Below are positions 13,311-42,749 of a stretch of DNA of 64,000 bases, one piece after another (the first letter of the stretch is position 1; each line of letters starts with the position of its first letter). The stretch lies in contig CM038926.1 of NCBI GenBank assembly GCA_021904315.1, positions 3,396,390 to 3,460,389 on the forward strand, read 5' to 3'. The notes under the pieces were generated by a model that ran no database searches, was not told the origin of the DNA, and saw only the letters and a program-made list of their open reading frames with translations. A program made the position numbers and the translations under genes. The DNA comes from Sphagnum magellanicum. Its lineage: Eukaryota > Streptophyta > Sphagnopsida > Sphagnales > Sphagnaceae.

Positions 13311-13319
13311 ATCCTATGG

Positions 13320-13925
13320 TCACATGGAAGCATAGGGAATTTTGATAGCTTTGACATGTGCCACATGTAAAAAAACAATCGGAAAACTTATAAGAAAAAC
13401 ATAATGACCTTCACTGGAGCCCCATTTCTGGTAGTACTTCCCTACAACAACTACATCGCCTGATTTAAATTTAGTCCCCCATTCACATGTGAAATCCTTT
13501 TCCATAGTATGTACAAGTTGCATACAAAGAACAAAAAAAAATTCCACGCTTTCATTGTTACCTTCTTTTACATTTACAACAAAGTTATCATCAAGTTCCA
13601 GGTAGTTCACCACATTGTCCAAATTCATCCCATTCATCTTCAATGGCAACAATTTCATTGGCAGACTAGACATACCTAACATTGTTTGGAATGAGAACTT
13701 CTACATCCTAATCTTTTGTCCATGCCAAATTCACACACTTATTGTAGTTTGAATCCATGTAGAAACAGTAGAAGCAAACAAGGCCTTTTCTAAATAGTTT
13801 ATTGATATCACCAACACCAACAAATTTAATTGAATGCACATTTCAACTCCCTTTAATTGAATCACAAGTATACTTGATTTGACAATTAACATCTAATGTT
13901 TTGACATGTTATAATACATGCGTAA
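13320..13925 (-). pseudogene. HGK/DGC family member I, C-terminal block
   Basis: Read on the minus strand from the CACTA edge, the block has CDSIKGS, then CFYCFYMDSN and NLAWTKD, then an open frame with LDDNFVVNVKEGNN, FFFVLCMQLVHTMEKDF and GDVVVVGKYYQKWG. It aligns with the plus-strand copy at 41.5-42.0 kb: CEIMKGSRKLHHV, CLCMHCIDCN, and VHTISKSFEDDD followed by DVLVKGY. The pattern suggests a Cys-rich stretch followed by a small beta-rich C-terminal domain. Function is unknown. It is the downstream continuation of the block at 16418-16950, from which a CACTA insertion separates it. A few in-frame stops show it is dead. Confidence 0.75.
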
Positions 13926-14435
13926 CACTAATAGAAATTGGTCAAAATGTAACCACTTTATTTGCGACTACATGTGACTACACTTGGTCATTTTTGCAAC
14001 TATTTATTGTGTTGGTCATATTTGTGACTACAGTGCAATTAGTTTGTGACTATTTTGGTGTTCATCCTTACATGTGAACAACATTCAGATCAATTTTCAT
14101 CCAAGAAGAACAATTTATGTCCCATTAATTACAAATGTGACCAATTTAATTACAACCCTATGAATATACAAAGGTGTATTTTGTGAATTCAAAGGAATAT
14201 AATTGGACGTATTAAGATTTATAAACATATGTTTTGAATTTATATGAACAACCATATTAGATGTGTATTAAAGTATTATTACTAACATAAATGGCCTTGA
14301 TATTATGGTTACATTAAATAATGTATATTTTGAGTATATTAAAATTTTATGTAAAATATCTGCTAAATATATTGTGCCCATATTACAAGTTTATCCAAAC
14401 CATATGATTATAATGCTTAAAATTATTACAAATGA

Positions 14436-14436
14436 C

Positions 14437-14477
<41 letters not shown>
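14436..14477. repeat. (ATT)n microsatellite
   Basis: This is an uninterrupted run of about 14 ATT units inside the CACTA element. It sits in a broader A+T-rich internal region and has probably expanded since insertion. Confidence 0.95.
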
Positions 14478-14479
<2 letters not shown>

Positions 14480-15844
14480 TACATGTGATAAAAAACTAAA
14501 TTTCAATATTATCTTTGATTATAATTTTCAAATAATAATTTCTTATTACATAATGATCATAATGATGACGACGATGACGATATTAGAACGATAGGAAAAA
14601 TAATTATATAATTACTGAAGTAATTATTTAAAACTTAATATATTATCATATTATTGTTATTAAATTATATTCAAATCACTAATGTACGTATTAAAAATTA
14701 ATTTTTATTTACTAAAAAATGAAAAAAATTATAATAAATCATAATAGTTCTAACAAGTGACATAATAATATATTATAATAATAAAATAATTAACATAGGC
14801 TAACTACAAATTACATTATTATTATTATTATAAGTAATCAAATATGAAGTATTATTAGATTAATACAATAATTACTAGGAAATATTAATATATATATTAA
14901 AATTTTTATATTAAATGTTTATAATTGATATTAATAATTCAATAATTATAATCAATTATCTATATATAAATTTTACTTTTAGTTTCATTATTTTAAAATT
15001 TTATAATAATTAATGTTTTAGTTAAAATGGAAATCTAATAAATTATTTTAGAAGGAAATTTTACTTATTAAAAATATAAAATATTTATTGTAATAGTTCG
15101 TAAATAGCTTTAATGAATGAAATAATAGTTGAATAGTAAAAATGAAATAGTTAACCTTGGCTACTAATTAACTACAATAATATCAAATTAATGTTATTTT
15201 TATTATTAAATATTTACATTTATATATATTATTAACTATATAAATGAAAATATTAATGGGATTAGTTATAATAAAATAATTAACCTAAGGTAGGTTTTAG
15301 TTATATTATTAGATATGTAAAAACTAGTAGTCAATATTTATAATTAATAAATACATAATATTTCAGTTATTATATTAATTCATTTGGTTACGAAATAATG
15401 ATTACTTCTTAATTAATTAAATATAATATTTAATTGTTTCAATATTAACCAATTACTAGTTAAGTAAATTGGTTGATGTATTGTTATAGATAATATATAT
15501 TTAAAATAAAATATCATTAATATTTATCTAGCTAATAAATTAAGTAATATTCAATAATAACTAATAATATAATTAATTCCATAATCATAAAAAAAGATGA
15601 TTATTATTATAAATAATTAGTTAGTTGGATAGTTTATAAAGTGAATTAGTTATTTTTAATTGAGTTGTTAATTAATTAATAAGTAAGTTTATTAATTTAT
15701 TTTTAAATATTATATTCATTAAATAATTAGTAGTTTTATTAATTAACAAGGTGTTTTGTATTTTCATATTTACAAAGATGGGCATATGGGATGAGTCAAT
15801 AAAAACGACTTAACCCAAAATAAAATAAAAATATTCATGTACTT

Positions 15845-15995
15845 GTACCTAACTACCTACTTCCCTAACTTACTTACCTACCTATTTAAGTAGGTATTTG
15901 GCCTAGGTAGGTAAATAGGTCCTATCTAGATAGGTGCTTATCGTAGATGGGTAGGTAGGTATTTAGGTAGGTAGGTACTTAGTTCAACCTATATA
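15845..15995. repeat. Inverted CCTA/TAGG tetranucleotide arrays (long hairpin)
   Basis: A left array rich in ACCTA/ACCTACC (about 15848-15890) is followed by a right array of TAGGTAGGT units (about 15895-15985). The two arms are complementary over much of their length and could extrude a cruciform. The structure lies inside the non-autonomous CACTA element. A similar mix of CCTA and TAGG occurs near 46.85-46.95 kb. Confidence 0.75.
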
Positions 15996-16417
15996 CCTAA
16001 ATATGGATTTAAATTTAATTTGAAAAAAATCAATTAATATGCCACGTTACAAATTTATATTGCACCATGTGTCACAATCTAAACCATCCAAACATCAAAT
16101 TAAACATCAAATTATTTCAAAATAATATTAAAATATTTTTAATTATTAAGAGTTGGGACATGTGGCAACACATAACTTGTTCCCATTGTTCGCCAAAAAA
16201 GTTGCATTTTAGTTGCAAGTAACAATATGTATATGACTAATCAAAGGATGAAAACGTATTTTGTTGACTTTTTCTTTCATCCAAAATTCATTGTCGTTTG
16301 AGACTAGTGTTAATGCGACTTGTCCAACATGACTATTAAGATTTTAGTTGCAAATGTTGCTTGCAACTAAAAATTAATTGCATGGACCAATTGCAAAATG
16401 GCCATTTTCTACTAGTG

Positions 16418-16950
16418 TAACTAACTTCTGCAGTTGAGAATATGAAGTTTCTAGCTGTGAGGATAAATATTTCTATGACAAAACAACATCTTCAACATTC
16501 TATAGTTTTGGACCATTTGAATCTAGCTAGTTATGTTTAATGAATCTTTTCACAACTACACTTAGCCCATCATGGGGCCTTTTACCATGATTAATGCTAA
16601 AAAAACTCCAAAACATCATACACCCACCTATTAAATATGGGTATCTGATAACAAAATACCATGGGGTTCAACTCTTGAATTAAAAAGAACACCCATCTAA
16701 CCACATCCAATGTTGAGTGGGTTCAAACCCACTATCCAACACACTTTGCTAATGTAGTAACAAACAATGTTGAACAAAGTAGTTGTCTTGAGACTTATCA
16801 TTTGAAATATAAAAGTGGTATTTCATGAGTATTTATCAATCTTCATCATTGGGATCCAAATGCGAATTTCGTTGAAGTAATTTGCACCAATATTGTCACT
16901 TGATGCAAGTGCTAGTGCATACTTTACACTTCATTTTTATTTTTTAGCAT
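16418..16950 (-). pseudogene. HGK/DGC family member I, core block with D-G-C and HGK..HDG motifs
   Basis: On the minus strand the segment reads, in order: SMHxHLHQVTILVQIT, LDPNDED, KYHFYISNDKSQDNYFVQHC, WMWLDGCS (D-G-C at 16689-16700), PWYFVIRYP, MMFWSFF, NHGKRPHDG (16566-16589), VVVKRFIKHN and LDSNGPKL. The copy at 41.0-41.5 kb gives matching blocks: VHYYVFDDTSHDSLFMQHG, MVWNDGCS, IWNFF, DHGKGEMDGAG. The two invariant D-G pairs lie about 42-48 residues apart and could be metal-binding carboxylates of an RNase-H-like nuclease. That role is inference. Stops and one or two frame changes show it is a pseudogene. The upstream coding junction near 16.95 kb is unclear. Confidence 0.8.
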
Positions 16951-17297
16951 AGCCAGTCCTTTTGATGGCATTCTGTTGATCATGAATTGTTGTTAATTTT
17001 TTATCGGCGTTTATGGTCTTCCAAGAGGCGTCAATTTTCTGTCCATTTGTTCCAAAAATATTTTCAGTCTTATAATCGTATTTTTTGTAGATGGGAGAGC
17101 CTGAAGCCACCAACCTGATGGACATGCCCTCAAATGTTCGAACTAACATCCTCAATTTTTTATGGGCCGGGGAATACGATGCATGGGAATACGAGGAGAA
17201 TGGTTACGTTTTAACTGTTGACCTGCATAAGTTGCTTGCCCCTGCCACTGATGAGTGGGAAAAGCAAATGCCAGACATTCTAGCCCATGTTCAATAA
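16937..17297. other. Exon-like segment with overlapping antisense open frames
   Basis: The plus strand has an open frame 17091-17297 beginning MGEPEATNLMDMPS and ending in LLAPATDEWEKQMPDILAHV. It is preceded by TTTTTTGTAG, which would make a good 3' splice site. The minus strand has an open frame 16937-17155 with IYKKYDYKTENIFG and KTINADKKLTTIHDQQ. Both have balanced codon composition unlike the A+T-rich surroundings, and they overlap by 65 bp. I do not recognise either. The stretch interrupts HGK-family member I between its core block and its N-terminal block, so it could be a captured host exon, part of an inserted element, or an inversion junction. Confidence 0.4.
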
Positions 17298-17299
17298 CC

Positions 17300-18132
17300 T
17301 TATAAATTCAAAGCTATAATTTTCAACAAAGTCAATCACTAAAAGAATTGTATCAATACGAAAATGTTTTAAACATTATCTGAATTGTTGGTCTTGCCAA
17401 CATGATACAAAGTTGTGGCATACAAAGTACTGAAGCTTTGGCTTTAAATAAATAATGAGCATAACTAAAAAAATAGATTTGTAGACAAGTTTTTGTTTTT
17501 TTTTTCCCTTTCATTTCTTGGTTACAATGGTCTCTAGAGAAAAACACTTCCAATAAACTAGAAAATCTGACGAGACATCTTCCTCAATCGGACAAATTGG
17601 GAGATTGTCTACTACATAATTTTCACATTCTCCTAGTAAGAACTCATGAATTCTTTTGAAGGTAGACCACTAATTCCCAAAGTGAAATAAGGTTAGGGTA
17701 TGTGTTCTTGTTCAAGCTACCATAACAAATAGAGGAGTTTAAATTGTTAGATTGATAAACCTCCTCACAATTATAACCATAATTTCAATGAATATTGGAT
17801 GTGGTGTGCATGTTTAAACCAATATGTAGTTTATTCATTTCCGCATGGTAAATATAATAGTAAATGTTGTGCTCCTTCATTTTTTTAACAAATAATGGAC
17901 ATTGCACATTGCACATCCTCTTCCCAATGATAATTCCAAGATGCGCTTTTTTAAATCACATGTAAAACTCCATATGCAAATCTAAGAACATAACCCACTT
18001 TTAGCCCAACTTGCCAATGTCCATTATAAACCTTAACATCATTAACATATCAAAAAATCCACCTATTACAAGTCCAAATGTCCAACCACCCAAGTCCACT
18101 AGCACATATTACATGTAAAAGACAAAATCAAA
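17300..18132. other. A+T-rich spacer, nothing recognised
   Basis: No coding signature was found. The last 200 bp are rich in TGTCCA/AAGTCCA, similar to the spacer between 20.0 and 22.2 kb. The GC-rich LTRs in between appear to have landed in that repeat environment. Confidence 0.4.
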
Positions 18133-18210
18133 ATTAGACCATGAAGACTGAATTGTTTGTAAAATATGAGCACTTTGGAGATATAAACAATTCAATCTTC
18201 ATGGTCCAAT
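18133..18210. repeat. 26-bp inverted repeat (foldback)
   Basis: The arm at 18133-18158 and the reverse complement of the arm at 18185-18210 agree at 24 of 26 positions, starting with ATTAGACCATGAAGA against ATTGGACCATGAAGA. They are separated by a 26-nt loop. It could be a small foldback element or encode a hairpin RNA. I saw no target duplication. Confidence 0.8.
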
Positions 18211-18257
18211 AACGTTGCAAAGATCAATATTGGATATTTTGTCCACAAATACTATTG

Positions 18258-18765
18258 TGTCGCAACTTCACTTTGGGATAAATGTGAGGATGAAACTCAC
18301 ACCCCTAAAAGTGGGAAGTTGGAGTGCTCTGGGACTCCTGAAAACTCAGAGCTCGAGTTCAAGGGTAAAAACACCTTGCATTGATGTGGTCTCTATATCA
18401 ATGGAAAGTTTTTGAAGTGTAGATGCCCAAAATGGCCTCGCATGTGCCATTTGGACATCTGTAGCCCAAGTTATGGGCAAAAGAAGGGTCGGGAGTCAAA
18501 TTGACAATTTGACTTTCGACCACTAAAAGTCGGGAATCGACCTCTTCTCGACGTTGGCTGAAGGAGTGCGACATGGCACTAGAAAGCTCTCGAAAAGAGC
18601 TACAACTTTGGCTTAGACCTCGTCTTGATCGGACTCTACAGTCGGGAGTTATGAACTACCAAAGTCCCGGGACTCCAACCTGGGACAGTTTTGGGACTCC
18701 TCCTCGGGAGTCCCGGGAAAAAGAGCCATTTGAATGTAGCCTCCACCGACAGCTGTAGAGAATAC
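18258..18765 (+). mobile_element. Truncated LTR, GC-rich family (copy B), plus orientation
   Basis: The segment begins TGTCGCAACTTCAC and follows the LTR family through the palindrome cluster to AGAGAATAC. There it changes abruptly into gag-like sequence that runs in the opposite sense. In its palindrome both arms carry the same change relative to other copies (AATTG / CAATT instead of AACTG / CAGTT), so pairing is preserved. It belongs to the rearranged unit with copy C (18258-19999). Confidence 0.85.
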
Positions 18766-19134
18766 CTTGGCAACATGCATGTAGTCTTCCATTTCAGCAA
18801 ACCAAGCATCCACAACTTTTCGATCTCAGGCACCATCGAAGTTCTCGGGCTTGGCCGGTTGAAACCTTTCACCCTTGGAGGTCCCCGTTTTGAGGGCCGC
18901 CACCAACTCACCAAAGTCGGGCCTATTCATCTTGAGGAGGACTTCAAGTTGCTCTGGGGTGAATAGAACCGAGCTCCGTTGTTCCTCTTCGCTTTCGAGT
19001 CCAACCTCGGGCTCATTTTGGTCCTCTCGGGAGTTTGGTTCCTCCTCCCCAATTGATTCTGGCGAGGCTACTAGGTCTTCGAGTTCCTCGGGCCTAGTCT
19101 CGGAAGCTTGCTTACGGTTCTTCTTGGGAGCCAT
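18766..19134 (-). pseudogene. Gag N-terminus fragment of the GC-rich LTR family (fossil)
   Basis: Read on the minus strand it starts MAPKKNRKQASETR right after the primer-binding site. It continues through an acidic Glu-rich stretch to SVLFTPEQLEVLLKM, GERFQPAKPENFDGA and DAWFAEMEDYMHVAK, which resembles the N-terminal gag of plant gypsy elements. It stops where it meets copy B. This is the only internal coding sequence of the family in the window, and it suggests a Ty3/gypsy affiliation. It is a broken fossil. Confidence 0.75.
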
Positions 19135-19163
19135 TCCAACCCAAGAAGTGAGCTTCACCACTT

Positions 19164-19175
19164 GCTCTGATACCA
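19164..19175 (-). other. Primer-binding site, initiator-Met tRNA type
   Basis: On the minus strand, two bases after the LTR end ...GCGTCA, the sequence is TGGTATCAGAGC. This is the classical plant LTR-retrotransposon primer site complementary to the 3' end of tRNA-iMet. It fixes the LTR boundary and the orientation of the family. Confidence 0.92.
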
Positions 19176-19177
19176 CG

Positions 19178-19999
19178 TGACGCGCTCCCAAGTCACGGGG
19201 TGAAACCCACTTGAAGGTTTCACAAAGTCAAGTTGCGGAACGTTGAGATTTGGTAGCACGCTCCCGGCTTCCAACTCTAAAAAGGGGGTAGAGGGTCGAG
19301 TTGGGAGCCCAGGGATTAGACTAGGAAGAGGGACTAACTTATCTCGTGTGAATCTGCATCCAAAAACCAACCACAAGAGGTTAGTTTAGCATTCGGGACA
19401 CCCTTTGGTGTTGGGACTTGCCACGGGCACTTGGACACACAAGACTCACCACGGCTCGGACTCGGGGGAAGCCACCACCTTCCCCCTTATAGTATTCTCT
19501 GTGGCTGGTCGCGGAGGCTACATCCGAATGGCACATTTTGTTGGGACTCCCGAAATGGAGTCCCGAAACTGTCTCGGGTTGGAGTCCCGGGACTTTGGAC
19601 GGTCACATCTCCTCGTCCCAAACTCGGATTGGGACGAGTCCTAAACCAAAGTTGTAGCTCTTGTCGAGAGCTTTCCAACGACATGTCGCACACCTCAAGG
19701 AGACGTCGAGAGAGGTCGATTCCTGACTTTTAGTGGTCGGGAGTCAAACTGCTAGTTTGACTCCCGGCCCTTCTTTTGCCCATAACTTGGGCTGTAAATG
19801 TCCGAATTGCTAATGCGAGGCCATTTTCGATATGTACGTTTCAAGACCTTTCCAATGACACCAAGAACATCTCAATGCGATGTGTTTTGGGCCTTGCCGT
19901 CGAACTCTAAACATTCGGGAGTCCCGGAGGACTCCAAACCTCCAACTTTTCCAAGTGTTGGGCTTCACCCCCACACTTGGCCAAAGTGGGGTTGCGACA
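19178..19999 (-). mobile_element. LTR, GC-rich family (copy C), minus orientation
   Basis: This 822-bp unit starts TGACGCGCTCCC and ends GGGGTTGCGACA on the plus strand, the reverse complement of the family ends. It is followed in its own sense by the primer-binding site and a gag start, so it is a genuine 5' LTR. The next 5 bases after 19999 (ATAGA) do not match the 5 bases before copy B (TATTG), so the B-gag-C unit is not a simple single insertion. Its outer ends are both U3-type ends, head to head. Confidence 0.9.
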
Positions 20000-20891
20000 A
20001 TAGACATTGTTGAATTGCAAGTCCACAAAATGGCCATAATTTAAACTATTGCAAGTCCATAAGATATCCACAAACTTTTGCAAACCCAAATTGTCCATCA
20101 ACAAATCCATGCTAATTTGAAAATATCACAAATTAACTTGACAATATAATAATTCCTAGATGGAATGTTTACACACTATGTCCTTAGACTTAACAAATAA
20201 ATCTGAATGTCCATCAATTTGAGTATGTCCATAGATTGTCCATAAAAATTGTTGTTACAAGTCCACATAATCCCCACATGGATTTTATAAGTCCACAAAA
20301 TGGCCAAAAAGACTATTGCAAGTCCATAGGATATTTGCATAAATTTTTGCAAATCCTAATTGTCCATTAACAAATCCGATCTAGATTCAAAACATCACAA
20401 ATTAATTAACTTGTTTACAACATAATTCCACATGGACTATTTAGAAGTGTACAGACTTCTAACAAATAAATATAAATGCCCATCAATATTGCCATTCCAA
20501 ATTCAAAATCAAACATGTCCATAGATTGTCCACATAATTATTGCAAATCCATGGATATAACAAAAAGTCTCAAGGACAAATTCATCAATAAACTTACATT
20601 CCAAACTTTAAAAACTCACCAATGTTGATAAATTACCCATAGAGACAACATTATAAGTCCATGGACTCAATAGATAGTCTTGAATGTCCATCAAAACATG
20701 CATTCCAAATTAGATAAATCCACATATTGTCTTTCAAAGTTTGTTGCAAGTCCATGGACTTCACATGGAGTCATAAACATCCATCATTAGTCCCATACCA
20801 AATCTAAAACCATAAGAGTTGTTCACAAAATGTCGAATGAGTTTACTGCAAGTCGATAGACTTAATAGAAATTCCTAATTGTCTTGAATAG
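20000..20891. repeat. AAGTCCA-rich spacer with a ~267-bp duplication
   Basis: GCAAGTCCATAAGATATCC at 20051 recurs as GCAAGTCCATAGGATATTT at 20318. Similarity continues through AATTGTCCATNAACAAATCC and later blocks, so a unit of about 267 bp is tandemly duplicated. TGTCCA and AAGTCCATGGACTT motifs fill the rest. No gene was seen. Confidence 0.65.
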
Positions 20892-21848
20892 TGTCGCAAC
20901 CCTAGCTTTGCGCTCGCGACCAAGGCAAAGGGAATTACAAAGGTGCGGGCCAAGAGGAAGCCCGGGAGTTAAAGCCAAGAGGAAGCCCGAGAGTGAAGCC
21001 AAGAGGAAGCCCGGGAGTCACATCACATACTCCCGGGAGTGCAAGAAAGTGTGAGGGAGTGTGAGGGAGTGAACCCTCACACTCCCAAGGCAACTCCCAC
21101 TTTGGGAGATGGAGTCCCGATGGACTCCTGAAATTTCAGAGAGCGATTGCAGAGGTCAAAACTCAATGGCTCATGGCGTTCCTTATATCATTGGAAAGCT
21201 CTTGAAGCGTAGATGTCTAAAATGCGCTCGCATTGTTCATTTGGACATCTAAAACACAAGTTATGGCCAAAAGAAAGGCCGGGAGTCGAATTGCCAGTTT
21301 GACTTCCGACCACAAAAAGTCGGGAATCGACCTCTTTTCGATGTCCGATTCGAGAGTGCGACACGGCGTTGAAAAGCTCGCGACGAGAGCTACAACTTTG
21401 CTTTAGACCGCATCGTGATCCAAGGTCTGCTCGCAAAGTTATGGGGCTCCAAAGTCCCGGGAGTCCCATTTGGCGCGATTTCGGGACTCCCGCGCGGGAG
21501 TCCCAGGAAAAATAGCTCCGTGGAGAGTCACAGAGTATACTATAAGGGGGAAGGTGGTGGCTTCCCCCAAGTCCGGGCCGTGGTGAGTCTTGTGTGTCCG
21601 TGTTGCCTGTGGCTCGTCCTAGCACCAAGGGTGCTCCAACTTTGCATTAACCACTTTGTGTGAGTTGTGTGCAGGCCCGTGTGAGTGACTAAAGCTTGTC
21701 AACTCTTCCTAGTCCCATCCCGGAGCTCCAACACGCCCCTCTACCCCTCAAAGTGTTGTGAGCTAGGGAGCGTTCTCCGACTCTTCCTTTTCCGATGTTT
21801 TCTACTTGGGCTCACATTTGAGCCCTTTAAAAAGTTGGGAGTGCGTCA
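20892..21848 (+). mobile_element. Solo LTR, long subfamily (copy D), 957 bp
   Basis: It starts TGTCGCAACCCTAGC and ends GGAGTGCGTCA. It belongs to a longer subfamily with an extra U3 segment carrying CTCGCGACCAAGGCAAAGG and three copies of a 22-bp motif with GCCAAGAGGAAGCCC (about 20949-21012). The flanks share 8 bp, TTGAATAG (20884-20891 and 21849-21856), longer than the 5 bp of other copies. There is no internal region. It sits within the 104-bp tandem repeat. Confidence 0.9.
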
Positions 21849-21856
21849 TTGAATAG

Positions 21857-22165
21857 TTCCCCTCCAAATCAAACAACTTCAAATGTGTCCACAAATTGTC
21901 CATAGATAGTCCTATTGCAAGTTTATGGACTTAACAAAAAGTCCTAATTATCATTAATACTTCCCTTCCAAATCAAACAACTTCAAATGTGACCATGAAT
22001 TTTCCATAGATAATCCTATTACAAGTCCATGGACTAAACAAAAAGTTTTAATTGACCTCAATAATTCCCCTCCAAATCAAACAACTTTAAATGTGCAAAC
22101 AAATTATCCACATACATTGCAAGTCGATGGATTTAACAAAAAGTCCCAAATGTCCATCAATATAA
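21857..22165. repeat. 104-bp tandem repeat, three copies
   Basis: Units begin at 21857, 21961 and 22065 with TTCCCCTCCAAATCAAACAA or a near copy. They continue through AAATGTGTCCACAAATT and CAAGTCCATGGACTTAAC. The sequence just left of LTR D looks like a further partial unit, so the LTR inserted into the array. Confidence 0.85.
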
Positions 22166-22660
22166 CTCTTCTATTCCAAAGATTATTGCAACTCAAAAAC
22201 TTTTAAAAAATTTTCATGTCCTAGAATTTATCACGAGTTGCAATTTTAGAACACAAATTCAATGTTGTCATAGCTTTTAATTCAAATTCACAAAGCTTCC
22301 TACAATACAATAGTAATTTGGAGAAAAGGTCAATGGCAAAACAAAAAATGACCAATTCATTAAACTCACTACAACCTTTAAACACTTGACATGTATATTC
22401 ATTTCATGAAACTTGTATAAAAAGGAACAAGTGACCTTCCAAGTTGCATTATGTGTTCATTCTAGAGTTATAATCCCAATCTGCATCTCTAAGTCTACAA
22501 CACTCTTTAACCAATTTCAATGTTCTTTCCAAGAGAAGTAAAATCGAGAGAACTATTTATACATATAAAGTTTCTTGCAGTTCATGATGTCCATTGAAGT
22601 TTGAAATCCAAGATACAATTCATAGACATATTATAGAAAAAAAGGAATTAAAATCAAGCC
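22166..22660. other. Spacer, possible intron of HGK member I
   Basis: No coding signature was found. It immediately follows, on the minus strand, the GTGAGT donor at the end of the N-terminal block of HGK-family member I. It could therefore be the start of that intron. Confidence 0.4.
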
Positions 22661-23290
22661 ACTCACTTGTGTCTCCATTAAGAATTGGGTAGGCTTTTCA
22701 TAAAAAACATTGACTACTACACGCTTGCGTTTCACCTTCTTTCTATCAGGACTCACTCTTGTCTCTTGAATCCACTAGGTAATAATTGTAACTTTTGTGG
22801 TAGACAACAAGGCATCATATCGTCTGTTCCTTATAAATAAAGTCCATAAAAAAACATCATTCAAATTCATAAACCTTTGCCATTGCATCGCAACAAAAAT
22901 ATTCTAATGGTGGAGAGCTAGAGTGCAAACTTTTTGTCTACATGACACATTGTTCCTAATGTTGTTGACAATAGCAGTTAACGAAACATGTTTGGTAGTT
23001 AATTTTGCAGCAAAACATGAATTTCTCACCTCTTCCAAGCTTTTCACCAAACCTACACCAATTTCATTTTGCAATGCAATGATTTTGGCAACTTCGATGT
23101 TAGTAGTCTTTGGAACTATGTCATATATGAAAGGATTAAATAGAACCTTTAACATTACCAATTTCTTGGATTTAAAAGGTAGGTGATTCCAGGCCTATTG
23201 AATGTACTGAACAATATTAATTACAACTCTCCTAACCTCCCTCTCCTTTACTAGTGCTTCTAGCGGTTGAACGGTATGAGGAACTAGATC
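22661..23290 (-). pseudogene. HGK/DGC family member I, N-terminal block ending in a splice donor
   Basis: On the minus strand it reads VMLKVLFNPFIYDIV, then NIRNNVS, NLNDVFLWTLFIRNRRYDA, WIQETRVSPDRKKVKRK and FYEKPTQFLMETQ. It then meets GTGAGT (22661-22666 on the plus strand), a consensus 5' splice site. Member II at 36.7-37.17 kb has matching blocks: VIEKFISHPLVKNIV, TKKDVFWIGQRQTRRSNS, VIQWWTNEPTISHVEDI and a GT at almost the same place. The basic R/K-rich segment suggests DNA binding. Stops are present. The next exon, expected to carry a C-C-C motif, was not found downstream, so that part is missing or beyond recognition. Confidence 0.72.
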
Positions 23291-23299
23291 ATTTGTGGA

Positions 23300-25930
23300 C
23301 AATGTTATTGCCTTTCCCCGAACCGTTCATATGTGTCACTTTTCCACATTCTAATCTCATACAATTGCTCATTGGGCAAGTATGGGTCTTATGATGTCTG
23401 ACCTTTTCTCACAGTCTCTACCATTACCCATTAAAGCTTCAAGCAAAGATGAAATGCACACTTCATTAAATGAGCATAACTTGTTGTAGATCAATGCCTC
23501 CAAACAACCACTTGAACATCTTGCTCCCACCCTAAACATATGCATCTAATTAATGCACTTGCGACCAAGTTTTCTTGCATGTTGATGCACACATGCAACC
23601 TTAAAATTTAAACAACCCTTGTCAAATTACATTGTTCGATTTCCAAAATGCTTTGGAATATAATGAAAACTTGAATATAAGGGTTGGTGAAAGGTTATGA
23701 CTTGAAAGCTTGTTGAAGTTTGTCAAAGGTGCAGAACATGGTGGCAATTCCAAAGTGATTAGTCGATGCCAATGTAGAGAAAGAAACCAAGGCCATGAGT
23801 TCTATACAATGGTGGATGTGAAAACATGTTCTACAACATCTACAACAAAAAACACAAAAACTTCAAGATGCAAAGAAAGAAGAGGTGATTGTTTTCATCA
23901 TGCTCAATGCAAAATCGAAGGCAAGAGGTGATCGTAAGTGATGTCACACCAAAATTCTAATGTCATTTAGTCAACTAGACATGGTTATTACTAGAAAAAA
24001 TTTCCCATTGATTCCTAAGGAAAAAATTCCATATGATCTAAAGTGGAATTAAAGGTTTCTATTTCTAGCATGTGTACACAAAAATAATTCAAGAACCTCT
24101 TTTTTTTAGTATGCTAGGGACTCTTGAAAAAACCACATGTTTTAACCTATTCAAGAGTCCATAATTACAATGTCATTTTGTAAAAAACTTTAAACTTAAT
24201 TTCTTTAATATGTTATCTATCTAAAATCAATTCCTTAACAAACATATCTCAAATTATAGGACCATGGCAAAAGTCCTTTTAAAAGTTGCTACCAAGATTA
24301 TAGTCTATAGTTTTCAACTTTGAAAGTTCATAACTCTAACACTTTTTGTAATTATGCAAATATAAAATGTGGAACAAATACTTAATCAAGTTAATATTTT
24401 CAAAATAAGTCCATAAATGGAAATCTTAAATTTATCCTACCCCATATGGTCATTACAATGACAACCACTTTACAAAAATTGTTAAAAAGTCCAAAAATTG
24501 GTCCACCTATTCATGCATTTACCCTACTATGTTAATAAAAAAACTACAATGAACTTTAAATTCATGGGTGTATGTAGGAAATTTTCATGTGAGCAAGGAG
24601 CCCCCTTTTAAGCCCATTCTTTTGGATTTTGGCCTCACTAAGAGCTTGTCATTTTCCAAAAAATAAGCACTTGCAAAAATGTTTCTTTCCTACATAGAAG
24701 TATTTGGACTTATTTTCTTGAATTTTTGATAATGTGAGTTTTTTCACCTAAGATAATTGAAGTGGGATATTTTAGTGGGTTGGTAATGTTGGCTAAATTT
24801 ATTTTGTGCAGGGTGATTATTTTGCAACATAATCACCTTGTTAGCACTTTTGTCATCATTTGCTAAATTAAGGTTGAAGCTTCGGATGGATATGTCAGAG
24901 GATGCTATGGCGATTATGAATTTCTTCTTTCATCATTCCATTCTAGGGAAGGAGTCCCTGGTATGTTTGTTTTTCTGAAGTTTTACCTAGAGTAGGTAAC
25001 AGAAAGTTCTTTATATTTTCATGTCTATGACAAGGTTCTTTGATGAAATGTCACTTGTAAATTCCCTTTGATCCATTAACCACTTGAAAGCTAGGAGCTA
25101 AGGTGCCCATAATCAAGTTGTGACAATGATGTATAAAGATTATTAGTCTTGCTTTTGGCAAATACCAAAACAAAATTTTAATGAAGCATGAACAAAATGT
25201 TGCAAAAATGAAAAGAACTTTTGGATTAGAAGACATCAACGTTCTTCAACTTCATTGTCTTTCTTAAATTAGGACTACTCCAAAAAATAGACATACACAT
25301 CTCAACAAATTTCATTGGTGTTTCATTTGCATCTAAGCACATGGAGACGTGAGTTTGGAAAAAATGTGTGAAACTAGCCAATTTTTTGGAGTTTACCTTT
25401 TGTAAGGTCCTTAAGACTTGACCATAATTTATTGTCCGACAAACAATTAATCATTTGATACAAACCTTTGGCTACAAAATCAAATCTATTTTGGTCACAT
25501 TCTTTTGGTTTATAACTAAAGGAGGCCTGTAAGATTACATAATTTGGTCAAAATTGCTGTAATAATTTCAAAGATGAGTGGGCTTCTTGTTTTAGTTTAT
25601 GAATATAGGTTGTAGGAAGATATGGATAAGTGGAGTTGGAAAGAGATGAACATAGGAAACAATTTCAGGACAAGTAAAAAAAGGAAGAGAATGGGTCAAG
25701 TCTTCACAAAAATCTAGTTCATTGCTCAACCCACACTCTAGATTTCAATTGTCTGATGACCTTCACATGTTTGTTGAGCTGCATTTTATTGTCCTCTAAA
25801 GTTTTTATCTCAAAGTTCTATTTCTTTTTACTTTTTGTTTTCTTTCTTTTTTATTGTTTTGGGTTTTTTTTGTCTTACATTTTCCCCTTTCTATAGTCCT
25901 CTTTCTTCTTAAGGCCTCTTGATCTTCTTT
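23300..25930. other. Spacer with scattered exon-like fragments, nothing assigned
   Basis: The only coding-looking patch is near 24.87-24.97 kb on the plus strand (LRLRMDMSEDAMAIMNFFF style). It is preceded by a TTTGTGCAG acceptor-like site, but I do not recognise it. The remainder is A+T-rich with no repeat structure that I could define. Confidence 0.3.
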
Positions 25931-25939
25931 ATCTTCTTT

Positions 25940-26110: not shown

Positions 26111-26119
26111 CTCTTGCTA

Positions 26120-28800: not shown

Positions 28801-28879
28801 GGAGAATGTGGAGGCAATAATGGAAGAGGTGTGGGGATTGGAAAGGAAGAAGATGATGATGATGAAGGAGATGGAAAGG

Positions 28880-29250: not shown

Positions 29251-29259
29251 TTAATCCCA

Positions 29260-33060: not shown

Positions 33061-33064
33061 GATT

Positions 33065-33380: not shown

Positions 33381-34029
33381 TTGTGTAGCTAGTAAGCTTT
33401 GTTGTTTTTATAAATAGTCCATGTTTGTTCACATGTTGAAATTATATTTCAACCCATTTAATGCCAATATGGCCAACCACAACACTTTTGGATGCGCAGA
33501 AAGAATCAATTGTGAATCATGGATTATAATACCATAAATTGTTAAACTTTAGTTCCATAGTTTTCCTTAGTATTAATGATTTGAATCTTGATAAACCTCC
33601 AAGTAATAATTATTAAGAGTTGAATTAGCCTTTGCATATTTTAGCATAGAAGACTCTTTTAATTAAATTGATGCAAGGCTTAGTTAATTTTAGGACCTAG
33701 TAAACCTTTTTAAGTGCATTATCCTTTTATGTTGTAGAAAAAGGAAAGGGGATGTAGAATTAGATGTGATTTATTGATATATTGGGAATACAAGCCCATG
33801 ATTAACAATAACATTTTGCCATGACAATATTAAATTAGTTTGTAGAATAATCTTCAGGCACGAATGATGTACTTGAAAGATTTCAAGGATGCAGTCCTAA
33901 TAAGTCTTTATTTAGTCTTCACTTTTATCAAACTCTTAAATAGAATCAAAATCAAACTTCAGTATTAACATTTCCACCTGAATGGCCTCAGGTGAATTAC
34001 AACTTAGTAAACAACTTTAAGGGGATAGA

Positions 34030-34442
34030 TCACAATTGCAAAAACTTTAGAACGCAACAAATGGTGCGAGCTAGGTATTCGACTCGATGCTCCATGGAAA
34101 GGGGATTGATTAGGCCTCGCAACCAACGATAATGGCCATCACAGGGAACCCAAGTTCGACAATGAAGACGAACATTGTCATCTTCACATTGACATTCTTC
34201 AAACCTTTCTAGTGCGGCTCCACAAGCAGGAACAAATTTTAAATAGATTGCTAAGGCATGTGGGTTAGGAGATAATCGACGATCCCATGTTAGTAATCGA
34301 CTTGAGTGCGCACCATTCTTCTAGACAGTTCTTCTTCGCGCGACCGTTGAGAGACATTCATTTCAAGCGGTGTTTCTTTAAGCTCTTTTTTTTCTATCAG
34401 TGAAACTGGAGGATTCGAGGGTGTAGCGACATCATCTGCCAT
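34030..34442 (-). pseudogene. Unrecognised ~140-residue protein family, copy 1
   Basis: On the minus strand it starts MADDVATPSNPPVSL and, after a small frame change, reads RLLTWDRRLSPNPHALAIYL, ALERFEECQCEDDNV, DGHYRWLRGLINPL and VEYLARTICCVLKFLQL then stop. It aligns almost without gaps with the copy at 61452-61874: M-A...A-T...P, L-x-x-W-x-x-x-x-S-P-N, L-E-x-x-x-E, H-Y-x-W-L-R, Y-L-x-R-T-I, L-x-F-L-Q-L-stop. The locus is 10 bp shorter than the other copy, which accounts for the frame change. AAACCCTAA, a plant telo-box, lies upstream at 34617-34625. I do not recognise the family. Composition is richer in G+C than the flanks. Confidence 0.7.
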
Positions 34443-34449
34443 GACTAAA

Positions 34450-35320
34450 TTCTCACCTGCATCAACAAAAACCAAGAGGGTAACAGAAACAATGGGGTAC
34501 TTGCATTCAGAAGGGGTTGAAGCTTTTTTATTTAACAAATTAAGGTAGGCATAAGGTGTGGGAGTGACGACAGAACCTCATGAAAACTTGAACATCCTAG
34601 ATCTAATGGATTCATCAAACCCTAATTTTGACGGTGCATCTAGAAGTATGTGGGGGTTTTTGGTGATGCAAATTTTAATTCTAATTTACTATGTACTACA
34701 TAGTTAATTAGTGCATGGAAAAAAAAAAGTAGGGGATATCAAAAGAGTAAATGGCATGTGGAGATGTTATTTCAAACATTGAATTGATTTAGTCAAGTAA
34801 GGACTCAAGGATGTTTACTTATTACTACTGATAAATTATCCTAATAGTTAGTTACTTGAAATAATTAGGATGAAGAAATAGGATGTGAGGGTCAATGGAC
34901 GGAAAGGATAAGGATCAAGCTCAAAAACCTTGTCAAGATATCCAAGATAAGGGGAAGGATGAGTTCTCCAAAACCATTAGTCATGAGGATTGTCATCCTA
35001 TTTGATTAGAGGATGGAATATTTTTTTGTGTCTCATTGGGCCCAAGAATTCTCATCCTAAAATCAATTGGAAGGCAAATCATTTTTAATTCTCATTGGTT
35101 CTTGAAGGATGAGGAGGCCATTGATTGGAGGGAAGGATTTTGAAGCTTTCATTGGACAAGGGGAACAAGCTTAAGGAAAGGTCATGGAGGCTTACCAAGG
35201 GAGAGAGGAGTATCTTGTGTTGGGGAAGGGAAAAGGAAGAAAAGGAATGTGTGAGGAAAATATTAATTCTTATGTGTGGAAAGGTGTTGTTCATGAAAAA
35301 GATGTGTGCAAGAAATAAGC
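34450..35320. other. Upstream region of copy 1 and spacer
   Basis: It contains the telo-box at 34617-34625 (AAACCCTAA), common in plant 5' regions. Purine-rich DNA of no clear function follows, around 35.1-35.3 kb. The open frames there lack motifs. Confidence 0.4.
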
Positions 35321-35327
35321 ATGGAAG

Positions 35328-35906
35328 GATTTCCATGACAAAGCCTCTAGAGTTTTATTTCAAATAGTTGTTCCTCCCAAATCCATTGTTGGATTCGAGT
35401 CAAACTTAAAATAATTCTTGTTTAAGAGGTGTAGAAGGTTCTTTCCAAATTTCAGCATCATCGGTTTGGCTGTAAGGGAGCTACATTTCCTGGGAGTAGA
35501 CGGTGTTGTAGGGGAATTCATAAAATGATTTCCATGACAAAGCCTCTGGAGTTTTATTTCAAATAATTGTTCCTCTCAAATCCACCATTGGATTTGTGTC
35601 AAACTTAAAAGAGTTATTGTTTAGGAGGTGTAGAAGGTTCTGTCCAAATTTTAGAATCATTGATTTGGTTGCAGGGAGCGACACTTGCCGAGAGTAAAGG
35701 GTGTTATAAGGGAGTTCATGGAAGGATTTTCATGACAAAGCCTCTAGAGTTTTATTTTAAATAGTTCTTCCTCCCAAATCCACCGTTGGATTTGTGTCAA
35801 ACTTTAAAAAATTCTTGTTTAGGAGGTGTAGAAGGTTTTCTCCAAATTTCAGCATCATCGGGTTTGCTATAAGGGAGCGACACTTGCTGGAAGTACAGGG
35901 GGTTAA
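35328..35906. repeat. 198-bp tandem repeat, three copies
   Basis: Units start at 35328, 35527 and 35725 with GATTTCCATGACAAAGCCTC or a close variant. They run through GAGTTTTATTTCAAATAGTT, AGGTGTAGAAGGTTC and GGGAGCGACACTTGC-like blocks. The spacing is 199 and 198 bp. The unit joint CATGGAAGGATTTCCATG is itself a near palindrome. The unit length is close to one nucleosome repeat. Confidence 0.92.
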
Positions 35907-35966
35907 ATTTGTCTATTCTTTCTTCAATCTAAGCAAAATGATTTTTAGTCCCAAGGCTTAACTCTT

Positions 35967-35987
35967 GATCAAAAAAAAAAAAAAAAA
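35967..35987. repeat. Poly-A run after the 198-bp array
   Basis: About 18 consecutive A residues follow CTTGATC. It could mark the 3' tail of a retroposed sequence. No upstream A/B box or LINE frame was recognised, so it is only noted. Confidence 0.5.
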
Positions 35988-36429
35988 ACATAAAATTTTG
36001 TAACATGGCTCCTTTTTAGATTAGTTTTTAAAAAATCTAATGCATGTTAGATTAGGAGGTTGTATGTAGATGTTATGACGAATAGAACAAAAGGGGTTCA
36101 ACCATCAAGCGTGACATTGAATGAACATCGACATAATGCCCCTTCACATTCCATCATGGTGAATTATGATTCTCCCACAATGTCTTTGTATCTTCCAAGT
36201 GGATACAATGCATTAGATTCTTAGTGAACTTCATTGCATTACATTGAACCACCTTACTTGTTAGACTACAACTACATAGTAGTTTCATTTCCAAGTGGGT
36301 TTTGTGAGTGCATATCTTCATGTTGAAGTTGTGCAAGAATGCCTCACACCAACATAAATGAACATTGCATCCAATAACTATTTTTTAAATAACAAGTTCA
36401 AAGATGACAAACATATGAAAACACCAATG

Positions 36430-37169
36430 TAGAGAAGAAAAAGGCCGATACACAAGAATGTGTTAAAAAGTGTAGACAACGGGCATTTGCTATACATGCA
36501 ACTATTATAAGGGAAAATCTTCAAGTAAATAAGGAATTTGACAATTCTTTAGGAATTTCAACCCCTAACTCTCTTGATTCACATGCCAAGCAGTCACAAA
36601 AAATCACAATTGATGTATCTTGAAAAGTTACAATGTTTATTATTGAACAAGTGAAGAATCTAAAGAGCAAAGTTTAACAAGTTGTAATCGAGAAGTTCAT
36701 TTCTCATCCACTTGTTAAAAACATTGTTCTTGATTATCTTAGCAATTTGAATGTTGTGCAACATAACCATGAAGTGATGTCTAGTTTAAATTTTGGTATT
36801 ATGAGTCACATGACTAGTCAAAAGCCCTCTAAAGTTGTGGTTGCCAAAAATGTGTTTGCATGCTCGCATCAAACCAATCAAGAGGTTGTAATGCTAGTCA
36901 AGTTGCAAAGGCCTTGGGTGTTGATAGGTGTAATATTAAGAAGGCCATGCCAAAAAGGCGTTTTCAACTAAACACAAAGAAAGATGTTTTTTGGATTGGT
37001 CAAAGGCAAACAAGAAGGTCTAATTCCCTGTTGCAAACATTCAAAGAACTGGTTATACAATGGTGGACAAATGAACCTACAATCTCTCATGTTGAGGACA
37101 TTGTAAGACAATGCATTGGTATTAAATTGGATGAGAAGCACAGTTGCCATTATCTTCAAAGTTTTGCAG
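36430..37169 (+). pseudogene. HGK/DGC family member II, N-terminal exon-like block
   Basis: It reads KKKKADTQECVKKCRQRAFA, ENLQVNKEFDNSLGIS, VIEKFISHPLVKNIVLDYLS, then SRGCNASQVAKALGVDRCNI, KKDVFWIGQRQTRRSNSLL and VIQWWTNEPTISHVEDIV. The SQVAKALGVDRCNIKKA part looks like a helix-turn-helix. The block aligns with member I at 22661-23290 and ends at a GT (37170) close to the place where member I has GTGAGT. A DNA-binding role is plausible. Stops and a frame change show decay. Confidence 0.72.
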
Positions 37170-37404
37170 GTGCATTTCAATTCAAAAATTTTATGTTTAT
37201 CCCTTTAGCCATTATGTAATTAATCAATTTAGAAAATCATTGAACAAAATTTGTTTAGATTACTAGCACTTTTTTAAAGTGGTGAATTTGAATGTTCTAT
37301 TCATTGTAACCGTGGGCTTGGGAATGTATCTAACCTTATGGAAAAGGACAACTGATTATTGTTGTTTTCAAAATGAGAAAGGTTTGCTATAATGTATATG
37401 TCAA

Positions 37405-37960
37405 TTTTGGTTAAGTGCTTAGGTCTATTTTAGTCTTAATATAAGTGGACTTGTGGTGTTGGTGTGCTAACTAATATGGGGTTGGAATGCTTGGGTGTGT
37501 TTCGGTCCTAATATATGTGGACTTGTGGTGTTGGTGTGCTTACTAATAGGGGCAAGAGTTCTTGGGTGTGCTTTGGTCCTAATATAAATGGGCACTCATG
37601 ATAACTATACAACAAAACTCGACTAGACCCCATGCTATGGTTCCCTACGGTCTATTTATGCTACAAGCTTGTGTTGTTGGTGTGCTAACTAATAGGGGCA
37701 AGAGTGCTTGGGTGTGTTTTGGTTTAAATATAAATGGACTTATGTTGTTGGTGTGCTAACTAATAGGGGTAGGAATGCTTGGGTGTGCTAAATAGTCCTC
37801 CCATAAGTGGGCTCAAGGTGCTTGTGTGTTTATTGGTAGGAGTAGGAGTGCTTGGGACCTTCTGTAAGTGGGCTTAAGGTGTTGGTGTGCTTATTGATAA
37901 AGGTAGGGGTGCTTATGTGTGTTTTGGTCCTTTTGTAAATGAACATGGGGTGTTTGTGTG
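37405..37960. repeat. ~71-bp tandem repeat, about six degenerate copies
   Basis: Units have GTGTTGGTGTGCTAACTAAT, then GGGCAAGAGTGCTTGGGTGT, then GTCCTAATATAAGTGGAC. The first two starts are about 71 bp apart (37455, 37526). One interval near 37.60-37.67 kb is occupied by unrelated sequence. Later units are more diverged. Confidence 0.8.
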
Positions 37961-38689
37961 TCATTGACACACATGCAAGAATGCTTGTGTTTTTTTTGAA
38001 ATGAACGTTTAGGTTGGTCATGAAAATTTGTCCTTTGAATGGTATGTCCTTTTTAAACTAGTTAGGGGTGTTAGGTTATTATGATTTTGGACTCTTAGTG
38101 CTTGAGTCCTTGGATAAGTGGACTTCAAGGGTACTAATTTCCTAGTTCTAATAGGTGGGATGCTTTCGTCTTATCTATGAAGGAACATGAAAGGTTGCCA
38201 AGGTATTGTTGTCTTTAATGAAATGGGAAATATAATGTTTTGTCCTTTTAGAAATGGATGGGGTGCTAAATTGCTTGTGACAATATGGTTGAAATACTTT
38301 TGCATGTCGTTGAATGACTAGATCAACATACATGTGTGTCATTTGTTTTGTAAATTTTGCTTCTTTGCCATTTTTTTTTAATATGTCCTTTGTATCATAG
38401 AACTTGGTTCTTTAGATCTATAAAAATCCATGAAATTGAATTTTAAGGATCAATTTTGTCAATCTTGATCAACACCCATATGCCATGTTTTTTCCTTGAC
38501 ATATCCAACAGAGGTTAATTTTGTTTTGAATGTTGTTACATCAATTTGGTTAATGGCCAATCCAATTAAGTCTCTACATCTTCCTATTTTCTTCAATTTA
38601 TGGACCAAGGACTGCCCATTCTAATTTTCATCTTAATTTTTTCAACTATGATTTCTGTTTTTGCCCTTTTAGGAGTTGCGCCTTTGTTT

Positions 38690-40060
38690 GCTAGTAAATC
38701 CATGTTGAGCTTCTTGCAAGAAAATTGCAACAAGGCTATTATGCCATAGATTAGTTATTTCTTTTCTTTTAAAATTGTGACTTTCCTTTTTGTCACTTGC
38801 TTTGAATTAGTTTGCAATTGTTTCCATAGTTGAAGCTTTGTGGCTTGTTGTTGTGCCCATGTTCCTTTTAATTTTCAATTTGTATGTCATCTATTTTGTA
38901 GATCTTATCGCTTTGCTTGGATCCATGAGTTTGAATTCCCAGGATCAAACAAAATTCAATATTAAATACCTATTTTTGTGTCTTCTTCCAACTATGGCTT
39001 TGATTTGAAAATGGTGCTCCTTCAAAGGCACACGGGTTAAGTTTTTTCATCTTGTTGTTCTCTACATATATGTTGGGATATACTTTTTATTTATTTTATT
39101 TACTTTCGTTAAAATCATGCTTTGCATTTCTTTCCATTATGTGAGTTGTGGATTTCTTTGTCAACAAATCCATGCTAAGATTTAATCCAACATAGCTTGT
39201 TGCGCCATGGATTTATTCTAATCCTTTTTCTTCTTTCAAATTTGTGACTCTCGTTTCTACCCCTTTCTTTGAAATCGTAATTAATTCCATAATAAAATAT
39301 TTTGTGGTTGCTTTGTTGTGCATGTGGTCCTTTTTTATTATCAAATTGTGTGATCTAATTTGTAGATCTTGTTGTGCCCATGGATTGGTCAACTTCTTAC
39401 TTTAATGTGCAGATTTTGTTGCTACCACTTGCTTTGTTTACAACATAACTATTGTCAAATGCCCATGTGGTCTTGTTTTGTTATCAAATTACGTGTCATT
39501 GACAAAATACATATATTGCTTTTGATATGCAGATTTCATGAGACTATTTTTCCATTATTTTACACAATACAGTAGAATGTCATTTCTTTGAATTTTTTTT
39601 TTTAACCACACATCATTTTTATTGCCATGTACTTACTTCTATTGGTGACAAATTATCCATGTGATGAAATTTTTTTGCAACAATTATGTGTTGACATCAA
39701 TCTTATTATGACCATGGATTGGTCAACTTCTTGTTCAAATGTGTTCATTTTGTTGTTATCAAGTGCCCATGGTCTTGTTATGTTTTCAAATTATCTGATT
39801 GACAACTTGTACATATATTACTTTTGATTTCTAGATTTCATGAGATTGTTTTTCCAATTTTGTACATAGTAGTTCATGGACTATCATTTCTTAGATTTTT
39901 TTTTTAATAGTTCACACAATTTGTGTTGCCACTAGCTTCTATTGTAACACAATTATTGTTGTTCATTTTGATGCTTCCATTTTTTTTGTTTAATTTGGAA
40001 CATGGCTACTATCAAGTGCCCACGGTCTTCTTCTATTTTTAAGTTGTGTGTCATTAACAA
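38690..40060. repeat. Nested diverged duplications (~460 and ~334 bp)
   Basis: CATGGATTGGTCAACTTCTT at 39379 recurs at 39713. CAAATGCCCATGTGGTC near 39459 recurs as CAAGTGCCCATGGTC near 39760 and CAAGTGCCCACGGTC near 40013. At a larger scale, GCCATAGATTAGTTATTTCTTTTC near 38745 recurs about 460 bp later as GCCATGGATTTATTC, followed by TTGTGACTCTCG. These are layered tandem duplications within the intron-like interval. Confidence 0.7.
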
Positions 40061-40279
40061 TTGATACCTAACACGTTTGATCTACATAATTTAACATTTT
40101 TTTTTCCATTGTTTTACACATAATGTTAATGTTGAATCAATGTGTTTAGGCGCAAATTATGTTGCATTTATGTGTTGTAAAGTGATGGGTTGCCTCTAAT
40201 GTCCAATCAAAATGGTTAGATTGTTTGTTAGGACTTTAAATATTGTTTTCCAAACTAACCATTATTTGTTTTTTGGTAG

Positions 40280-42140
40280 TCAGAGTTTTGAACTGCCTTC
40301 AAGGCCAACGATCCATAGGTTCCTATGATGTTTACATTGTTTCAAGCATTGAAGCCTTAGTTTGTACATCAATTGAAAGCTTGGAATACATGTTGTTGTC
40401 AATATCTTATGGAGTTGAGGGAGTTGTTGTTTGGAATAAATGAGATGCAAATTGTAGGAAAGGGCATTCACACAAATTGTACATGTAGATGTGGTGAAGT
40501 TTGCAATGCCCAACAAATAACAACAGTAACAACATATATGTGTATTGCTAATTCTTCTATCTTTTCTGGCTTCACTACTTTGTGGACGTCAATTGTTTGT
40601 CCAAAGTTTGAAATGTCATTATGGCATGCTAGACCATGCTTATTGGGTGAATGCCAAAATTATGGGATTAATACCTTGAGAATTTGCTTAGAGGAAGTTC
40701 GGTCTCAAAGCTTGATTTCATGGAGAAGTATAGGGTATGAGGTTGTGGGTCATACAAAAGATGGCAAGGAGAAGGCCTTAAAATTAAAGTATCACGAAAC
40801 CCCACCATCAAACCTCATAAATTATCTGAAACCATGCTTGAAGGAGTTTGTGTTCCATAATTACATGGCTAGATGGTGGGATACACAATTCTGATAATTA
40901 TTGAGTAATGTGTTTGTTGACATGGTGGTCTCCTACATTGACTTTTCTCATAACTACACAATGAAAATATAAAATGAAATTCAAAATATGCAGTAGCATA
41001 ACTTCCAAGTTAGCATATTGGTGCACATTACTCATCGTCGAAATCCAAAATATGACATACTAGATTCAAATTCATTACCTCTTCTTAAGGAAGTTCATTA
41101 TTATGTGTTTGATGACACAAGCCATGATTCCTTATTTATGCAACATGGATTCATGTTATATTGGGAGTTTCTACAAACGAGAAGATGTTTCCCAAGCCAA
41201 CACATGGTGTGGAATGATGGTTGCTCAAGGTAATTCAAAAGTGCAAGAACATGGTACTTTGTCTCTCTTTACCTAAGTTTGACCACATGTTTTGCCTTAC
41301 CAACTGGTTGCTAGATGATATGGAACTTTTTTACAACCGACCATGGCAAGGGTGAAATGGATGGTGCAGGAACATTATTCAAGCATGAGGTCAAAAAGGA
41401 ACAACTCAAGCCTAGGGGGCAAAAGATATAAAATGTTGTTGATGTTGTGGCATTTTTGAAAGCAAAATCAAACAAGTATCATGTTGCCCACCTTGGGGCC
41501 AGGCGACATGAAGTGAAAATTGGCAATGTTAATAGGTCTAGGCCTTTTGATTGTGAAATAATGAAGGGGAGTCGAAAATTGCACCATGTTCAATCTGTTT
41601 CAAATAAAAATCCTACCCTTGGCCAATTTCAACAATTGTTTTGCCTATGCATGCATTGTATTGATTGCAACTTGGAATCTTTATGTGCCCATAGAGATCA
41701 TGTTCTTGAATGGACCTTAACTAGATTGAAGCCCAAAAACCCATTAAAAGTTAGCGAAATGATCTATGAGAGTGACAAGGAAATAAAGGCTAGCATAGGA
41801 GGTGAATGGATAGCTGACAATCTACACCTAGGTGACAATATTACAGTGCCTACTTCGAGAGCCATTTTGGCTTATGCTGGTGCACAAGGGTGTTCACACT
41901 ATTTCTAAATCTTTTGAAGATGATGATATGAATGAGTGGACCACACGAGATGTTCTGGTTAAAGGATATTAGTATGAGAGATTACAACTTGGCAGTTGAT
42001 CATATCAATTATGAAATGATAAACCACTAGCTTATGTTGTTTCACATTTGGTTTTAGATTCAATATGTCTCCTATTATTCATTATGTAAAGGGGAGGTAC
42101 GTTACATATGAACTCATTAATGAAGTGGCAAAAGTGATTG
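40280..42140 (+). pseudogene. HGK/DGC family member II, core and C-terminal block
   Basis: In order: FQALKP, WNTCCCQYLMELRELLFGIN (C-C-C at 40391-40399), CTCRCGEVCN, ISWRSIGYEVVGHTKDGKE, ALKLKYHETPPSNLINYL, FVFHNYMARWWDTQF, VHITHRRNP, KEVHYYVFDDTSHDSLFMQH, MVWNDGCS (Asp at 41216-41218), WYFVSLY, IWNFFTTDHGKGEMDGAG (HGK...DGAG at 41342-41371), KHEVKKEQLKP, YHVAHLGARRHE, FDCEIMKGSRKLHHV, CLCMHCIDCN, WIADNLHLGDN and VHTISKSFEDDD. The Cys clusters suggest zinc binding. The N/S-D-G-C...Q-F-K and H-G-K-G-x-x-D-G-A-G motifs look catalytic. This is a pseudogene with several stops and frame changes but is the most complete copy here. It could be a transposase or a domesticated derivative. Confidence 0.82.
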
Positions 42141-42745: not shown

Positions 42746-42749
42746 TTTT

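Follow-up and report, generated by a model that had tools for sequence, protein, structure and literature searches.

What kind of element left the two broken, mutually similar protein-coding relics that lie in a 64,000-nucleotide stretch of the Sphagnum magellanicum genome (GenBank assembly GCA_021904315.1, contig CM038926.1, positions 3,396,390 to 3,460,389 of the forward strand; C20:3396390-3460389 in the coordinates used here)? A sequence-only reading of this whole stretch, called the window below, had related the two relics, member I on the minus strand and member II on the plus strand, and had proposed a metal-dependent nuclease of transposase type without naming a superfamily. The transposase idea is supported here by element ends, 4-bp target duplications and a dispersed multicopy family. 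Members I and II are quite probably dead copies of a cut-and-paste DNA transposon, and Sola, chosen by its described marks, is the most likely name for the superfamily left unnamed. According to PMC9946827, Sphagnum sex chromosome 20 measures about 5 Mb, and the window would sit on this small sex chromosome.

The two members are homologous, as collinear tblastx matches link them block by block, in the same order and on the strands already given for them (sum E 2.66e-38, window 12001-24500 against 34000-44999). The best pairs are 17582-17307 against 40691-40966 (37% over 92 codons), 16832-16641 against 41081-41272 (42%) and 16625-16440 against 41306-41491 (39%). In addition, the open reading frame (ORF) at 17514-17669 of member I matches member II in a blastp comparison (E 1.5e-6). 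The blocks that the sequence-only reading had listed for member I stand, with one omission, the segment 17307-17669, which is among the best-matching pieces of this member. Member I is broken into pieces, and member II keeps a single, stop-interrupted frame through its catalytic block and continues frame-shifted beyond it.

The genome (438,994,042 bases in 31 contigs) was searched with the read-through of member II, giving at least 79 matched stretches, one of which is the window itself and the others of which show 34-66% identity. One of these 79 is free of stops, spanning just 56 query residues. A query from the other lineage matched at least 100 stretches, again with a single stop-free one, which is partial. 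The two sets overlap, both counts are lower bounds, and a stretch is not equivalent to an element. No intact copy was found among the family stretches matched in the genome. The family is multicopy and dispersed over many contigs, unlike the single-copy host gene which had been put forward as the outcome that would speak against a transposase.

Twenty copies were fetched with their flanks, and 19 of them were aligned with the window pieces to give 22 rows, two of which come from member I; L044 stayed unaligned. Three copies, A, B and C (on C10, C18 and C19), are longer pieces of L028, L029 and L034, counted once among the 20, and are 87-89% identical over two aligned stretches. The weak outer blocks at the N- and C-terminal sides, which the two members had been said to share, are confirmed because each also matches further family copies in tblastn searches against the family loci. 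For the N-terminal part, member II in its best frame has matches in 11 of the 20 copies and member I in 7 of the 20, while the C-terminal part of member I matches 6 of the 20 in its best frame, with L046, L045 and L043 as the best. In a tree of 19 sequences, member II clusters with L038 and L039, and member I, on a long branch, with L041, L043 and L045; L034 and L040, being frame-shifted stretches, were excluded from the tree and from the stop counts. The closest nodes have FastTree supports of 0.87 and 0.80, the next nodes outward 0.99 and 0.93, and the IQ-TREE bootstrap is 76 at the node joining member I to its group. Members I and II group apart and therefore represent separate lineages of one family, of which both are decayed, dead copies.

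Three Asp residues are conserved in the family alignment, namely in VDFxxNYT (17/19 rows), WxDGC (16/21) and HGKxxxDG (14/18). The last two are the D-G residues already pointed out, and the spacing of 42-48 residues given for them is correct, with 42 in member I and 48 in member II. Calling them invariant was too strong in view of these counts, and the first Asp had been missed. Together the three would form a DDD triad with a putative catalytic role. Read by eye, strand-like stretches around the Asp residues and a helix-like run after the third one resemble the arrangement in RNase-H-like transposases. The Cys-rich and small C-terminal blocks come after the catalytic part.

Pfam and NCBIfam hold no model that fits the 22 rows convincingly. 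The N-terminal helix-turn-helix-like stretch has a weak Pfam match to Cro (E 0.02), and the raw pieces gave a second weak match, Phage_SSB (E 0.01), both below the cut-off. On the 22 rows, Pfam and NCBIfam returned 8 and 4 families, respectively; every family appeared in a single member, at E 0.02 or above, and these were taken as chance matches. At E up to 1, a range in which the search filters drop most matches above about 0.1, Pfam reported neither a transposase nor an integrase model for any of the 22 rows. The PDB gave no match by sequence, a single one by profile (E 0.25) and no credible relative.

Element ends were mapped by searching the genome with the outer 3 kb at each side of A. 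Seven rows begin at A 1914-1917 and three stop at A 14438-14439, delimiting an element of 12524 bp with inverted repeats of about 26 bp. The left junction of A reads GGGTGCAAATACAATAAAACGACCCA and its right junction, reversed, GGGTCCAAATACAATAGAATGACCCA, with differences at a few places in other copies. Allowing up to 3 mismatches, the end pattern GGGTNCRAATAYARTAAAATGACCCA occurs at 134 places in the genome (63 + 71), and the control pattern read backwards at none (0/0). The same inverted ends bound C17 (5.6 kb) and C13b (11.7 kb), with lengths taken from the end positions. They also bound short elements resembling miniature inverted-repeat transposable elements (MITEs), several pairs of ends doing so among the end matches listed (100 of the 134). 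Of 15 short candidates fetched, 10 had a usable partner end and measure 353-631 bp (L063-L069 and L075-L077).

Together with A, C13b and C17, these 10 short elements bring the number of elements having two ends to 13. In 8 of the 13 the flanks show an exact 4-bp target duplication (CATG, TCAT, TATA, CAAA, TTTA, ATAA, TGTT and TTTT), as against 0 in 20000 mispairings of the flanks, and duplication lengths of 2, 3, 5, 6 and 8 give 0 to 3 of 13. The candidates L070-L074 were left out, having no good partner end within the fetched DNA; L072 has a partner end at 4 mismatches, the first bases of which are lost, and shows no duplication, and counting it in would give 8/14. In C17 the final base of the element differs. 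Copy C and a copy at C19:663525, both outside the 13, share their left flank, which looks like one insertion duplicated along with its surroundings. Variant ends such as GGGTGCAAACACAATAACATGAGCCA recur among the end matches listed and, with the MITE-like elements, suggest several non-autonomous subfamilies. The inverted ends and fixed-length duplication that the sequence-only reading had recommended looking for are therefore present in the sister lineage of A, B and C and were not recovered in the window copies.

With the first Asp and the ends with their 4-bp duplication added to the two D-G motifs, a name for the family becomes possible. Sola (Sola1, Sola2 and Sola3) was reportedly first described by Bao and others in 2009. 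According to the review PMC10741241, Sola elements carry a DDD transposase, have inverted repeats of 11-1124 bp and produce 4-bp duplications. Their size is mostly 2-9 kb but exceeds 15 kb in some, and they are present in the moss Physcomitrella and seemingly not common in flowering plants. All of the Sola marks that could be checked were found, and the family is therefore filed as probably, not provenly, Sola.

Several points weigh against this assignment. The likeness to Sola is one of published description, which makes membership likely rather than proven. The mapped ends belong to the A/B/C lineage, which differs from the lineages of the window copies, and among A, B and C they are seen in A (both) and C (left) only. 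They were not found in the window copies, in 17 other loci or in an extended B (up to 4 mismatches, within the fetched DNA). Candidate inverted ends of the window copies had best edit distances within those of shuffled controls, and a relaxed pattern search likewise gave none. A genome search with the flanks of member II did not find its ends either, because these flanks are other repeats. Five of the 13 elements (6 of 14 counting L072) have no exact 4-bp duplication, and for the short elements a partner end was allowed as many as 5 mismatches. Finally, an AlphaFold2 model built from a three-row window alignment has a mean pLDDT of 36.9 and is uninformative on the fold.

In the preferred mechanism, the helix-turn-helix-like N-terminal part of the transposase would bind the GGGT...GACCCA inverted ends. 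The catalytic part would have an RNase-H-like fold, in which the three Asp residues, each with a presumed role, and metal ions would cut the DNA. Insertion of the ends into a target cut with a stagger of 4 bp would then leave the 4-bp target duplication, and the window lineages presumably used the same kind of ends.

The same data can be read in other ways. A DDD transposon that moves by cut and paste and likewise makes 4-bp duplications, but belongs to a superfamily other than Sola, would suit the 22 rows without a credible Pfam or NCBIfam match, the profile without a credible PDB match, and the strong HGKGxxDG signature, which is tied to no reference sequence. Such a D-G-C / HGKGxxDG superfamily, missing from the domain libraries used here, greatly expanded in a moss and leaving MITE-like derivatives, is nevertheless unlikely, as the testable published marks of Sola, moss occurrence included, were found. 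Ginger and Academ can make duplications of about 4 bp, and piggyBac and Kolobok duplicate TTAA, which brings known non-Sola superfamilies with a similar duplication into consideration. However, TTAA does not occur among the 8 exact duplications, and for the 22 rows Pfam reported no model of an integrase, of piggyBac or of any other transposase (E up to 1), making this origin highly improbable.

Two further readings were considered. Copy A is long and carries other short open frames on both strands, as would be expected if the ORF were cargo and the 12.5 kb span a larger element. Yet copies of 5.6 kb and of 353-631 bp also lie between these ends, and no other gene was recognised among the frames of at least 75 aa in A, which were inspected by eye without a search; this explanation has very little probability. 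Even less can be given to an origin that is not mobile, in a host gene family now decayed or in a domesticated protein. Neither window copy is whole and an intact element was not seen, as such a family could also show, but the dispersal over many contigs, and the inverted ends, target duplications and short derivatives of the sister lineage, speak against it. A Sola-type transposon stays the preferred origin of both members.

The copies also carry a pattern of decay. Over the stretches in which copies A, B and C were aligned, derived changes from C to T affect 7/16 CG sites and 8/23 CHG sites, both small counts, and 200/2564 CHH sites, compared with transitions at 113/5018 A/T positions. In Gln columns of the protein alignment, 15 TAG stops stand against 11 kept CAG codons, and 9 TAA stops against 119 kept CAA codons. 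This decay agrees with loss of methylated cytosine, and suggests methylation-driven transposon loss in mosses. Within CHH, the rate is high at CTA (44/193), CTC (19/89), CAA (67/586) and CTT (39/340), and low at CAC (1/248), CCC (2/100), CCT (3/144) and CAT (13/540). This unevenness may reflect the sequence preference of a moss CHH methyltransferase. Recoding of TAG in the TAG-rich copies was considered and dropped, since the stops are of all three kinds and fall mostly in Trp and Gln columns.

The features of the window are collected in Table 1.

Table 1. Positions of the blocks of members I and II and of adjoining repeats in the window (row counts refer to the family alignment).
Feature	Position	Strand	Basis
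N-terminal coding block of member II, a frame-shifted relic that holds the helix-turn-helix-like stretch (VAKALGVDRCNIKKAM)	36573..37159	+	tblastn, E 5.5e-21 to L037 in frame 2 and E 2.0e-17 to L031 in frame 1
Member II catalytic block, one frame, 7 in-frame stops	40361..41908	+	tblastx and genome matches
Member II first Asp (IDFxxNYT)	40940..40942	+	Asp in 17/19 rows having letters
Member II second Asp (WxDGC)	41216..41218	+	Asp in 16/21 rows
Member II third Asp (HGKGxxDG)	41360..41362	+	Asp in 14/18 rows
Member II C-terminal domain, partly frame-shifted	41859..42172	+	E 1.2e-24 to L039; 12/20 copies, best frame
Member I N-terminal block	22556..23173	-	E 1.1e-8 to L046; matched in L033, L036, L041, L042, L043, L046, L047
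Member I block with first Asp (VIDFVENYSF, codon 17331-17333)	17307..17669	-	tblastx, and blastp to member II
Catalytic block of member I, with the second Asp at 16695-16697 and the third at 16569-16571	16440..16832	-	
Member I Cys-rich stretch and C-terminal domain	13287..13977	-	E 1.1e-18 to L046, 1.5e-18 to L045, 3.9e-18 to L043
Separate high-copy repeat directly upstream of member II N-terminal block	33510..36349	.	
Separate high-copy repeat just downstream of member II C-terminal block	42760..43827	.	

Both repeats beside member II were characterised from the 40 candidates that each search scored. For the upstream one, matches at many places begin at or within a few bases of 33510 and end near 36349, giving a unit of about 2.84 kb that is mostly 85-90% alike between places. 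The downstream one, of about 1.07 kb, consists of two abutting pieces matched at many places. A further repeat of up to about 0.9 kb (L029 5914-6824) is nested in several family copies, and three matching pieces lie inside the member I span (window 20996-21848, 19178-19999 and 18257-18765). At window 1675-3513, on the minus strand, frames read by eye contain pieces resembling a Ty3/Gypsy-type integrase zinc finger and reverse transcriptase.

Relatives were also sought outside the moss. Anonymous animal proteins presumably carry a WSDG...QxK...HGKGxxDG motif, and three scans of viral contigs for patterns based on this motif found 0, 0 and 61 stretches, with no relative among them: the family profile matched 0/61, with the positive control L022 being found. 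Two additional pattern scans of viral contigs returned 27 and 22 stretches and no relative. A motif scan of prokaryote contigs gave 19 stretches, of which the family profile matched none. Eight of these 19 were translated, yielding five long frames and one truncated frame of one protein, which we take to resemble polysaccharide deacetylase, and two short frames.

A literature search, its scope not extending to subscription journals and Repbase, did not find this family described. A protein family which Pfam and NCBIfam did not recognise here now has a likely name, together with element ends and a rule for its targets. Unclassified repeats make up 7.8% in the published Sphagnum genomes, as given in PMC9946827. 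The motif order and the ends could help annotators to find and date such elements in mosses and other non-flowering plants, and the same markers could keep element remains from being counted as genes.

Compared with known systems, the anonymous animal proteins presumably share with the family the order of the second and third Asp motifs and have them at a similar distance. Sola3 targets TTAA, which does not fit the duplications seen. Ginger is alike in its duplication of about 4 bp. It encodes a Gypsy-like integrase according to PMC10741241, in contrast to the 22 rows, in which no integrase model was reported (E up to 1). Sola as a whole is alike in the three conserved Asp residues, with their putative catalytic role, in the 4-bp duplication of the sister lineage and of the short elements with its ends, in the inverted repeats of that lineage (about 26 bp, not detectable in the window copies), in the sizes of A, C13b and C17, and in its presence in moss.

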